Shown here in pieces: positions 48,322 to 51,602 of a DNA stretch of 64,000 bases; position 1 is the stretch's first letter, and every line of letters begins with the position of its first letter. This DNA is from Ruminococcus sp. (lineage in GTDB: Bacteria > Bacillota > Clostridia > Oscillospirales > Acutalibacteraceae), in the NCBI GenBank assembly GCA_022768065.1, contig JALELS010000014.1:1-64000 (forward strand), read 5' to 3'. The notes beneath the pieces were generated by a model. That model did not search any database and had not been told where the DNA came from. It saw only the letters and a program-made list of their open reading frames with translations. Position numbers and translations under genes: made by a program.

Positions 48322-48352
48322 TTGACTTAGAGTAAACTCCAAGTGTTAAATT
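48322..48352 (+). promoter_or_regulatory. MerR-type promoter with 19-bp spacer and operator dyad
   Basis: TTGACT (48322-48327) and TAAATT (48347-48352) are 19 bases apart, the stretched spacing that MerR-family activators correct by untwisting DNA. Between and across them lies CTTAGAGT-AA-ACTCCAAG (48326-48343), a near-perfect dyad with one mismatch. This resembles sites of AdhR-type MerR regulators. A MerR gene closes the operon at 51099, so it is the likely activator. Confidence 0.82.
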
Positions 48353-48426
48353 ATATTTAAAGATAAGCACACTTAACATCAGCGCCCCGACGGGCTCTGA
48401 TAAAACTTTAAAAGGAGCTGATTACA

Positions 48427-48966
48427 ATGAGTAAAAAGGTTCTCATTATTTCATCAAGTCCGAGAAAACACGGCAACTCGGATTTACTCTGCGATGAATT
48501 CGCACGCGGAGCAAAAGACGCCGGAAACGAGGTTGAAAAGGTCTTTCTTGCCGATAAAAATATAAATTACTGCCGTGGCTGCGGCGTATGCAATTCCACA
48601 CACAAATGCGTTCAAAAGGACGATATGGCGGAGCTTAATGACAAAATGGTCGAAGCCGACGTTATAGTTCTTGCTTCTCCCGTGTATTTCTATACCGTTG
48701 ACGCACAGCTTAAAACATTTATTGACAGGTGCGTACCGCGTTACACAGAGATGTCGGACAAAGATTTCTATTATATTCTGACAGCGGCGGACCCCGACAA
48801 AGCGGCGTTTGACAAGTCGATAGAATGTATAAGAGGCTTTACGCTCGACTGCCTTGACGGTGCAAAAGAAAAAGGAATAATAAAGGGCGCCGGTGTATTT
48901 GAAAAAGGCGAAATTAAAGATAAGCCCGAATATAAAGAATGCTATAACATGGGCAAAAACGTATAA
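48427..48966 (+). CDS. Flavodoxin-like NAD(P)H:FMN oxidoreductase
   Basis: The 179-residue protein starts with the FMN-reductase pattern LIISSSPRKHGNSDLLCDEF. A cysteine group CRGCGVCNSTHKC follows, typical of a subgroup of Clostridia flavoproteins that may carry an Fe-S cluster or redox cysteines. ASPVYFYTVDAQLKTFIDR completes the flavin site. It is the first gene behind the MerR promoter, with AAAGGAG before the ATG. It probably reduces a small electrophile, quinone or metal; substrate unknown. Confidence 0.88.
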   Translation: MSKKVLIISSSPRKHGNSDLLCDEFARGAKDAGNEVEKVFLADKNINYCRGCGVCNSTHKCVQKDDMAELNDKMVEADVIVLASPVYFYTVDAQLKTFIDRCVPRYTEMSDKDFYYILTAADPDKAAFDKSIECIRGFTLDCLDGAKEKGIIKGAGVFEKGEIKDKPEYKECYNMGKNV

Positions 48967-48989
48967 AGCGATTTTAGGAGATTGATATT

Positions 48990-49547
48990 ATGGAAAACAC
49001 TTTGACAAGAAAAAGACAGATTATAACCGCCAAAACTCTCACGACGGTTATAGGAATAGTTTTATCGGTCGCAATGCCGCAGTTATTTCATGTAATAGGA
49101 GCCGTGAGCGGTACCGGCAGCTTGCCCGGCTCGGCGTTTCTGCCGATGCATCTCGGCGTATTCTTTACCGCTCTTTTGGCAGGTCCTGCGGTGGGCGCCG
49201 TAACGGGAGCGGTAAGTCCCCTTTTGAGCTTTGCGCTCACCGGTATGCCGTCGGCGGCGCTTCTTCCGTTTATGATGATAGAGCTTACCGTATACGGTCT
49301 TGTGTGCGGACTTCTCAAAAACAAAAAAATGCCCGTCATTTTAAAGGTACTCATTGCTCAAATTCTCGGCAGAGCCGTTCGTGCGGCTGCGATTTTAATT
49401 GCGTTTTACGGGTTTAAAAGCACGGCGGTTGCACCGTCAATAATACTTTCAAGCATTGTATCGGGTCTTCCCGGACTCATTTTGCAGTGGACGCTGCTTC
49501 CGCTTCTTGTTTACCGTGCCAAAGGGTTAAACAAATACTATGAATAA
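48990..49547 (+). CDS. ECF transporter substrate-binding (S) component-like membrane protein
   Basis: A 185-residue, six-helix protein. The motif AMPQLFHVIG... and PMHLGVFFTALLAGPAVGAVTGAVSPLLSFAL fits S-components of energy-coupling factor vitamin importers. S-components use a shared EcfA/A'/T module, which is not in the window. Alanine-rich GxxxA packing near the N-terminus supports this. The vitamin cannot be assigned. It lies 23 bases after the flavoprotein gene and overlaps the DUF1893 gene by eight bases. Confidence 0.75.
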   Translation: MENTLTRKRQIITAKTLTTVIGIVLSVAMPQLFHVIGAVSGTGSLPGSAFLPMHLGVFFTALLAGPAVGAVTGAVSPLLSFALTGMPSAALLPFMMIELTVYGLVCGLLKNKKMPVILKVLIAQILGRAVRAAAILIAFYGFKSTAVAPSIILSSIVSGLPGLILQWTLLPLLVYRAKGLNKYYE

Positions 49548-49947
49548 TACGGAAAAGGCAAAAGAACGCCTTAAAAACGGCGCGTCGCTCGTGCTGTATG
49601 ACGGAAAAGAATTCATCGAAGAAAACGGCAAAGGGCTGTCCCCTCTTTTGAAGCTGATTGACGGCAAAACCGATTTATCGCGTTTTTGCGCTGCCGACAA
49701 AATCATAGGAAAAGCCGCCGCCTCGCTTTTTGCGATGCTTAAAATCAAAAATGTGTACGGCGAGGTTTTAAGCCGCAAAGCCATACCGATACTCGAAAAA
49801 TACGGTATAACATACACTTGCGGCACCGTAACGGACAACATCAAAAATCGCGACGGCACGGGGATTTGTCCTATGGAACAGACCGTTGACGGCATAGACG
49901 ACGCCGAAACGGCATTGAAAGCCATAAAAGAAAAATTAAAACTATGA
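49540..49947 (+). CDS. DUF1893 protein (deaminase-like fold family)
   Basis: The 135-residue protein matches DUF1893 (TM1506-like): NGASLVLYDGKEFIEENGKGLSPLL, then DKIIGKAAASLFAMLKIKNVYGEVLSRKA and NRDGTGICPMEQTV. The Thermotoga relative has a cytidine-deaminase-like fold, but the family has no assigned reaction. ICPME supplies the only conserved-looking cysteine. It is coupled to the genes on both sides by overlaps, so it works with them. Confidence 0.85.
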   Translation: MNNTEKAKERLKNGASLVLYDGKEFIEENGKGLSPLLKLIDGKTDLSRFCAADKIIGKAAASLFAMLKIKNVYGEVLSRKAIPILEKYGITYTCGTVTDNIKNRDGTGICPMEQTVDGIDDAETALKAIKEKLKL

Positions 49948-49958
49948 GGATGAAAAAA

Positions 49959-51071
49959 ATGAAAAAACTCGGATTCGGTCTTATGAGACTGCCTGTTCTC
50001 GACAGCAACGACCCCTCTAAAATAGATATTCCGCAGGCTGAAAAAATGGTAGATAAATTTTTAGAGCGCGGCTTTACCTACTTTGATACAGCATATATGT
50101 ATCACGATTTCAAAAGCGAAGAAACCGCAAAGAAAATCATAGTAGACCGTCACCCGCGCGACAGTTTTACGCTCACCACAAAGTTGCCCACAATGATGTT
50201 GAAAACAAAGGAAGACAACAGGCGCATATTTGAAAAACAGCTCAAAAACTGCGGTGTTGACTATTTTGATTACTATCTTCTTCACAACTTAAACGTATCG
50301 AATTACGAGACGGCGACAAAGCTCGACTGTTTTGACTTCGTAGCCCGTATGAAAGAAGAGGGCAAAATAAAGACCGTCGGATTTTCGTATCACGATGACG
50401 CAAAGCTCCTCGACAGAATTTTAACCGAACACCCCGAAATCGAGATAGTTCAGCTTCAGATAAACTATCTTGACTGGGATAACCCCGGTATTCAGTCGCG
50501 CTTGTGCTATGAAACGGCAGTAAAACACGGCAAAAAGGTAATTGTAATGGAGCCCGTAAAAGGCGGAACACTTGCAAAAATACCCGACGAAGCCGAAAAG
50601 CTGCTCAAACAGTATGCTCCGGACGCATCAATTCCGTCATGGGCGGTAAGATTTGCCGCAAGTCACGACAGCGTTATGACTGTACTCAGCGGAATGAGCA
50701 CCTACGAGCAGCTCCTTGACAACACCGGATATATGGAAAACTTCAAGCCTTTGTCTAAGGAAGAATTTGAAATTATAGACAAGGTAGTAGATATTATAAA
50801 AGCTTCTATCACCGTACCCTGCACAGGCTGCAGTTACTGCACGGCAGGCTGCCCGAAGCATATTCCGATACCGAAGTACTTTGCTCTTTACAACGAAGAA
50901 ATGCGCGCGAGATATAAGGACTTTTCAATTCACAGCCAATACTACGAAAACCTCGCTAAAGAATACGGAAAAGCCTCGGACTGCATTAAGTGCAGAAAGT
51001 GCGAAAAGGCGTGTCCGCAACACATCAAGGTAAGCGAGCTCATGCCGCAAATTGCAAAGGCCTTTGAATAA
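49959..51071 (+). CDS. Aldo/keto reductase with C-terminal 4Fe-4S domain
   Basis: The aldo/keto reductase barrel occupies about residues 1-280: GFGLMRLPV, catalytic Tyr in FDTAYMYHDF, and YYLLHNLNV. A ferredoxin-like part follows, with CTGCSYCTAGCPKHIPIP and CIKCRKCEKACPQHI, enough cysteines for two clusters. Such fused enzymes are common in anaerobes and may take electrons from ferredoxin rather than NADPH. ATG at 49959 has GAGGA eight bases upstream; two earlier in-frame ATGs are less suitable. Substrate unknown. Confidence 0.9.
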   Translation: MKKLGFGLMRLPVLDSNDPSKIDIPQAEKMVDKFLERGFTYFDTAYMYHDFKSEETAKKIIVDRHPRDSFTLTTKLPTMMLKTKEDNRRIFEKQLKNCGVDYFDYYLLHNLNVSNYETATKLDCFDFVARMKEEGKIKTVGFSYHDDAKLLDRILTEHPEIEIVQLQINYLDWDNPGIQSRLCYETAVKHGKKVIVMEPVKGGTLAKIPDEAEKLLKQYAPDASIPSWAVRFAASHDSVMTVLSGMSTYEQLLDNTGYMENFKPLSKEEFEIIDKVVDIIKASITVPCTGCSYCTAGCPKHIPIPKYFALYNEEMRARYKDFSIHSQYYENLAKEYGKASDCIKCRKCEKACPQHIKVSELMPQIAKAFE

Positions 51072-51098
51072 GGGCTCAAAAAGAGAGGCGGTTTTAAA

Positions 51099-51491
51099 AT
51101 GACCATAGCGGAAGTTGCCGAAAAATACGACCTTACTCCCGATACGCTGCGCTATTATGAGAGGATAGGTCTTTTGCCGAAAGTCGGCAGGACACCAGGC
51201 GGAATACGCGATTACAAAGAACAGGACTGCGGTTGGATAGAATTTATTAAATGTATGCGTGCCGCAGGGCTGCCAGTAGAAGTTCTGATTGAATATGTAA
51301 GCCTTTTTTGCGAGGGTGACAGCACCGTTGCCGCAAGGAAAGAACTTCTGATAGAGCAGCGCGATCAGCTTAAAAAGAGAATTGCCGATCTTGAAAGTAC
51401 TCTCGCAAGGCTCAACAGAAAAATTGATAATTACGAAAGTATGTGTATCCCGTTTGAGAGAAAGCTCAAAGGAGAAAAGGCCGACCGTTAA
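51099..51491 (+). CDS. MerR-family transcriptional regulator (AdhR-like)
   Basis: The N-terminal helix-turn-helix and wing read TIAEVAEKYDLTPDTLRYYERIGLLPKVGRTPGGIRDYKEQD. A coiled-coil dimer helix follows (KELLIEQRDQLKKRIADLESTLARLNRKI). No metal-binding C-terminal loop is present; the only late cysteine is in YESMCIPF. That size and pattern fit AdhR/YraB regulators that respond to aldehydes or other electrophiles. It closes the operon and probably acts on the 48322 promoter. Confidence 0.9.
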   Translation: MTIAEVAEKYDLTPDTLRYYERIGLLPKVGRTPGGIRDYKEQDCGWIEFIKCMRAAGLPVEVLIEYVSLFCEGDSTVAARKELLIEQRDQLKKRIADLESTLARLNRKIDNYESMCIPFERKLKGEKADR

Positions 51492-51536
51492 CCCAATATT
51501 GCAAAGTACATTTTGCTTTTGCCGCTCCGAAATACA

Positions 51537-51579
51537 TTGATACAAATGACTTATTGTGTTAAAATAAAGGTTGTATCAA
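51537..51579 (+). promoter_or_regulatory. Promoter inside a 9-bp inverted repeat
   Basis: TTGATA (51537-51542) and TAAAAT (51560-51565) are 17 bases apart. TTGATACAA (51537-51545) and TTGTATCAA (51571-51579) are a perfect inverted pair; one half covers the -35 box and the other lies just past the start point. A repressor bound to both halves could loop or cover the promoter. Confidence 0.65.
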
Positions 51580-51602
51580 TAGTTTTTCGGGGTGGCATTT
51601 TT

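Follow-up and report, generated by a model that had tools for sequence, protein, structure and literature searches.

A recurrent ECF S-component and DUF1893 cassette with interchangeable oxidoreductases in gut Clostridia, and its putative electrophile-inducible form in Ruminococcus sp.

Introduction

Several described systems come close to parts of the operon treated here, which lies at positions 48322-51491 of a 64,000-nucleotide stretch of Ruminococcus sp. DNA (contig JALELS010000014.1; hereafter the window) and consists of five same-strand (+) genes, for an iron-sulfur flavoprotein, the S-component (ECF_S) of an energy-coupling factor (ECF) transporter, a DUF1893/TM1506 protein, an iron-sulfur (Fe-S) aldo/keto reductase (AKR) and a MerR regulator. 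The control region resembles that of the AdhR regulon of Bacillus subtilis and of the NmlR clade, with which it shares a MerR protein carrying Cys52 and a dyad within an overlong promoter spacer. The B. subtilis AdhR regulon includes a carboxymuconolactone decarboxylase (CMD) and depends on Cys52 (PMC4776306); oxidoreductases in the regulon and CMD among the putative targets are further points in common. Unlike that regulon, the window operon holds an ECF S-component, DUF1893 and a Fe-S AKR, and not the formaldehyde dehydrogenase AdhA/AdhC or the YraA proteinase.

With the group II ECF transporters (RibU, FolT, ThiT, PanT) the operon has in common the six-helix S-component fold, a shared EcfA1-EcfA2-EcfT module whose genes lie at a separate place in the genome and, possibly, an AxxxA-like helix 1, whereas the window S-component is without a sequence relative in the Protein Data Bank (PDB) and is paired or fused with the soluble DUF1893 (or DUF362). 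The DUF1893 product agrees with TM1506 (PDB 1VK9; in Borrelia burgdorferi 9E9A) in its full-length Pfam match, its superposition on 1VK9 and its DK..GKAAA and CPxE motifs; its context in the cassette is an importer and an AKR, and in other Firmicutes a homoserine kinase fusion or a radA-disA neighbourhood. Known Fe-S aldo/keto reductases likewise combine an AKR barrel and catalytic tetrad with a C-terminal double 4Fe-4S domain, but the window AKR differs from them in being tied to DUF1893 by operon and by fusion. What is new is that ECF_S and DUF1893 recur as a pair, in some loci as one polypeptide, and that the oxidoreductases beside them can be exchanged; every part comes from a known family.

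Results

Conservation and fusions of the cassette

When species-level genomes were scanned for DUF1893, 80 loci in other species, mostly Clostridia, were obtained, with 815 kb of sequence. In 62 of the 80 the S-component gene was situated directly upstream of DUF1893, and the genes found close by encoded AKR (47 loci), DUF362 (13), ArsP_1 (6), MerR (4) and FMN_red (4) proteins. The first-pass annotation, made from the letters of the window alone, had proposed that the five gene products belong together, and this is supported by co-occurrence, adjacency and fusions; it had also described a fixed set of five genes, which did not hold, as the flavoprotein and MerR genes are present in few relatives. 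The core is ECF_S-DUF1893, to which one or another oxidoreductase (AKR of type A or B, or DUF362) is added, the AKR being its most frequent partner and the flavoprotein and MerR optional.

Among 150 genomes of the family of the window, 34 contained DUF1893, and the S-component model matched at some level in 74. Where it matched strongly, at about 110 bits or more, DUF1893 was present in 28/28 genomes (Fisher p 7e-25), and some S-component match was found in 33 of the 34 genomes with DUF1893 (p 1.6e-11). These p-values overstate independence, because phylogeny was ignored, and the fusions together with the varied gene orders are the safer evidence. Stop-free ECF_S-DUF1893 fusions were identified in L013/L136, L023, L135, L142/L170, L143/L171, L145/L173 and L147/L174, the reverse order DUF1893-ECF_S in L179, DUF1893-AKR-A fusions in L073 and L134, and a DUF362-ECF_S fusion in L068. 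Several of these come from draft genomes; assembly error is unlikely as their general cause, because the cases are many and the second domain is conserved on each side. The N- and C-terminal ends of a six-helix S-component are both cytosolic, so in every fusion the soluble part comes to lie in the cytosol. The cassette is real and widely conserved in gut Clostridia, and its genes almost certainly form a functional unit.

The S-component

The predicted AlphaFold structure of the S-component, built from 53 relatives, reached a pLDDT of 93.5, and its best PDB neighbours in Foldseek were TmRibU and FolT (probability 1.00) and ThiT and PanT (0.99), at TM-scores of 0.5-0.6 and with weak E-values of 0.0095 and above. 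A PDB search returned no sequence relative. In helix 1, where an AxxxA-type motif would serve docking to EcfT, position 26 was A or S in 53/53 sequences and position 22 mostly A, S or G, with L or I in some; the window protein has G22 and S26. The residues P30, H34, L51-P52-M53, M86-P87, E98 and Q166 were invariant. An EcfA1-EcfA2-EcfT module is present in the same genome, with CbiQ/EcfT at 175.6 bits on C24 and two ATPase genes adjoining.

The NCBIfam S-component family CD3073 was ruled out as the identity of the protein, which scored 20 bits where the cut-off is 180. A riboswitch pointing to the cargo was found neither in the window operon, where Rfam was searched, nor at the cassettes of 12 relatives, the FMN and c-di-GMP-I riboswitch matches in those 12 loci falling outside the cassette. 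A sister S-component subfamily with a LCPMHIPVLLCG-type motif occurs in L239, L240, L243, L249, L250, L253 and L256, from genomes without DUF1893, and in several cases its genes adjoin DUF3842 or a small nucleoside-kinase-like protein; these paralogues with such neighbours therefore represent a different subfamily, in a further orphan transporter context, and give no clue to the cargo.

DUF1893/TM1506

The homologue of the DUF1893 product in Thermotoga maritima is TM1506 (PDB 1VK9), on which the predicted structure (pLDDT 95.1) was placed by Foldseek with an E-value of 1.1e-12 and a TM-score of 0.88 by query; true deaminases ranked after 1VK9, at low similarity. An alignment of 46 relatives gave invariant residues including D53, N103, R104 and C110-P-M-E113. 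The first-pass annotation had regarded the family as having no known reaction, which needs correction, as a review describes TM1506, at second hand, as auto-ADP-ribosylating on Asp (PMC8946771). D53 is invariant, and its equation with the Asp modified in TM1506 is putative. Among the 5.4 million papers searched, none contained the name DUF1893 and a single one mentioned TM1506.

In distant Firmicutes homoserine kinase-DUF1893 fusions were encountered (L175:3431-4810, L176:3373-4788, L177:3295-4731, L178:3233-4597), located in hom-(thrC)-thrB clusters and followed by radA- and disA-like genes; the homoserine kinase part (GHMP) was confirmed by Pfam in L175 and L177. DUF1893 also adjoins radA in L189 and L190, stands beside cupin, O6-methylguanine-DNA methyltransferase and MFS genes in a genome of the window's family (L128), and is stand-alone in one distant Firmicute (L180:4413-4950), where a dyad promoter of the MerR type precedes it by about 120 bp. 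DUF1893 occurs without an importer in other Firmicutes, so that the cassette has evidently taken up a protein of more general activity.

Fe-S aldo/keto reductases and DUF362

The window AKR carries two C-x2-C-x2-C-x3-C (4Fe-4S) motifs, and the catalytic tetrad D45/Y50/K77/H111 (alignment numbering) and all eight cluster cysteines were 100% conserved in 51 relatives. In the PDB it matched only 1YNP, a distant AKR relative without a Fe-S domain. A second type, AKR-B, likewise with two Fe-S motifs, is 22-25% identical to the window's type A, and some loci have both. DUF362, the further oxidoreductase partner, belongs to the clan of the lactate racemase LarA (PMC11770544). At L040:3583-5237 a DUF362 gene is followed by one for a LarC-like nickel insertion protein and by ECF_S-DUF1893, all behind a MerR dyad.

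The dyad promoter in other loci and in the same genome

When the 80 loci (815 kb) were scanned under relaxed conditions for the dyad and a -10 box at overlong spacing, 9 sites were obtained against 1, 0, 0 and 0 in shuffled sequence, and 9/9 were upstream of the cassette (L040/L041, L043, L045, L066/L096, L070, L098, L102). Further cassette dyads were provided by genomes of the family (L024, L130, L131); L123 appears to be the same stretch as L043. In L045, from the named isolate Christensenella intestinihominis, the order is dyad-ECF_S-DUF1893-AKR. In about ten other lineages the dyad promoter thus precedes the cassette, as a check suggested by the first-pass annotation had asked of orthologous operons. 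Nearest to the window is Candidatus Soleaferrea massiliensis (L102), with the order dyad-FMN_red-AKR-B-ECF_S-DUF1893-AKR-A-MerR, where a 54% identical flavoprotein gene is likewise the first behind the dyad. The flavoprotein, whose C-x2-C-x2-C-x5-C motif we take to be of the type found in iron-sulfur flavoproteins, is an accessory member of the cassette.

Cys52 was retained in 5/5 cassette-borne MerR copies examined (window, L043, L070, L098, L102). The genome of the window contained four dyad sites including that of the window, and none for the reversed pattern. The three others precede a CMD gene (L118), an AKR-flavodoxin pair (L120) and a cupin gene (L003/L119), a set of predicted targets resembling the AdhR/NmlR carbonyl-stress regulon; the AdhR-like character given to the MerR protein at first pass is borne out by Cys52 and by CMD behind a second dyad, as in B. 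subtilis (PMC4776306). The cupin gene (L003 from 1583; C28 near 80240) is frame-shifted in the assembly, and L128 has an intact relative next to DUF1893. The genome yielded only one close homologue of the window MerR and a single further gene of MerR type, from which we infer that a small regulon under the window MerR is plausible. AdhR/NmlR-like control of the window operon is very probable.

Layout of the window operon

The promoter with its 19-bp spacer and the dyad are both located where they had first been read ahead of the five genes (Table 1). The dyad has 0 mismatches, and even with 2 mismatches allowed no second site turned up in the window (shuffle mean 0.21 sites at that tolerance). 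The overlapping stops and starts reported with them stood in part: there is an 8-nt overlap between ECF_S and DUF1893, and the overlap with AKR depends on an uncertain start, as in-frame ATGs are present at 49944, in the 49953 region and at 49959. Relatives favour MKKLGF at 49959; an ATGA overlap between the DUF1893 stop and the AKR start is possible, not certain. The MerR gene begins 27 nt past the AKR stop.

Table 1. Features of the operon; positions are those of the window.
Feature	Position	Strand	Evidence and remarks
MerR-type promoter	48322..48352	+	-35 TTGACT 48322-48327, 19-bp spacer, -10 TAAATT 48347-48352; read from sequence
Operator dyad CTTAGAGT-AA-ACTCCAAG	48326..48343	+	exact match; predicted MerR regulator binding site
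Small hairpin ATCAG..CTGAT in the 5′ untranslated region	48378..48401	+	RNA fold of 48355-48430, z -2.59
Iron-sulfur flavoprotein, NADPH-dependent FMN reductase family (PF03358, FMN_red), C-x2-C-x2-C-x5-C	48427..48966	+	Pfam 86.3 bits
ECF-transporter S-component, core member	48990..49547	+	PF12822 (ECF_trnsprt) 32.5 bits against cut-off 30.7, marginal
DUF1893/TM1506 protein, core member, deaminase-like fold	49540..49947	+	PF08973 138.3 bits, full-length match
Fe-S AKR type A	49959..51071 (start ambiguous, 49944-49959)	+	PF00248 172.3 bits plus Fer4
MerR regulator, NmlR/AdhR type, Cys52 in FIKCMR motif	51099..51491	+	MerR Pfam matches

Rfam families gave no match anywhere in 48322-51491, including the hairpin of the 5′ untranslated region, whose role may be incidental. 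A simple promoter scan of the operon returned 11 sites against a shuffle mean of 5.9, and a terminator scan 10 against 4.6. Directly past the MerR gene lies a very stable long inverted repeat (51520-51598; z -6.4, minimum free energy -39 kcal/mol), which has TTTTT after it and also holds a promoter-like site for the next gene. The repeat, of which no further copies were found in the same genome, is probably a terminator or operator.

Discussion

The operon is best explained as an electrophile-inducible uptake-and-reduction cassette, a reading to which we assign a probability of about one half. The MerR protein would be bound to the dyad in the overlong spacer, and reaction of Cys52 with an aldehyde or other electrophile would remodel the promoter and switch the operon on. 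The S-component would then take a small molecule from outside, using the housekeeping EcfA1-EcfA2-EcfT module, and DUF1893, attached to or beside it on the cytosolic face, would bind or chemically modify the cargo, possibly with NAD(+), in view of the reported auto-ADP-ribosylation of the family. Reduction of the cargo would then fall to the Fe-S AKR, receiving low-potential electrons via its two clusters or the flavoprotein, and the Fe-S reductase or DUF362 would complete the conversion. Scavenging of a cofactor or precursor when carbonyl stress consumes the cofactor is the likeliest purpose, with clearance of an imported carbonyl compound as the alternative. That one and the same molecule is both imported and reductively processed is a tentative part of this proposal, put at somewhat under even odds. 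A more specific form, in which the importer is coupled to chemistry, is improbable: here DUF1893 would covalently trap or convert the cargo with NAD as co-substrate (vectorial capture), the Fe-S AKR or DUF362 would finish a new cofactor, and AdhR-type electrophile control would apply in some species.

Several observations weigh against inducible uptake and reduction. On the side of control, the best NCBIfam model for the window MerR by far, NmlR, scored 141.3 bits, under its cut-off of 175, and the protein is therefore named NmlR/AdhR-like and not a member of the curated family; because the genome has one further MerR-type gene, the pairing of the dyad with the window MerR is one that we infer; and most cassettes are without a recognisable dyad or MerR gene, so that inducibility lies outside the core and is limited to a subset. 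On the side of chemistry, in 12 of the 80 loci neither AKR nor DUF362 was detected near ECF_S-DUF1893, some of these loci being truncated where a contig stops, and DUF1893 is alone in 9. Neither a riboswitch nor a known S-component family identifies the cargo, and the occurrence of DUF1893 without an importer in other Firmicutes means that its reaction need not involve the cargo.

DUF1893 could instead be a regulatory gate, its auto-ADP-ribosylation upon a change in NAD or redox state opening or closing the S-component or its docking to EcfT. Direct fusion to either end of the S-component, the modification of Asp stated in the review (PMC8946771) and the strict invariance of Asp53 would suit such a gate, but the DUF1893-AKR fusions point to a role near the reductase, and in L055, L062, L084, L085, L094 and L095 DUF1893 lies beside AKR without an adjacent importer, which leaves the gate rather unlikely.

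It is also unlikely that the genes form a general set for carbonyl or quinone detoxification, with the S-component only a membrane anchor or exporter helper and no uptake. AdhR-like control, a flavoprotein and an AKR are typical of electrophile defence, and an ArsP_1 permease is present in some cassettes; however, the predicted fold matches solved vitamin-binding S-components (Foldseek probability 0.99-1.00), the invariant residues of the S-component suggest a bound ligand, and the ECF module is present in the same genome.

Cofactor repair or remodelling, in which the S-component imports a pyridine- or nucleotide-type precursor from which DUF1893 and AKR or DUF362 make the active cofactor, draws on the 13/80 loci with DUF362, the DUF362-ECF_S fusion in L068, the DUF362-LarC-ECF_S-DUF1893 order behind the dyad in L040/L041 and the membership of DUF362 in the LarA clan (PMC11770544). 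It is quite improbable, as LarC was seen in one lineage only and a direct sign of the cargo is absent. Chance packing of unrelated genes by genome streamlining, with which the seldom shared flavoprotein and MerR would agree, is scarcely credible and is already refuted for ECF_S-DUF1893-AKR by the co-occurrence (p 7e-25), the fusions in both orders and the many genera.

As an uptake-and-reduction cassette or otherwise, the genes unite poorly understood families, the orphan ECF S-component, DUF1893/TM1506 and the Fe-S AKRs, plus DUF362 as a fourth, in one cassette common in gut Clostridia. The natural fusions lend themselves, each as one protein, to ligand screening, and an inducing condition is suggested by the AdhR-type promoter. 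The identity of the cargo would give a function to DUF1893 and to a subfamily of S-components, and gut bacteria might prove to import a cofactor, or a carbonyl compound from host or diet.

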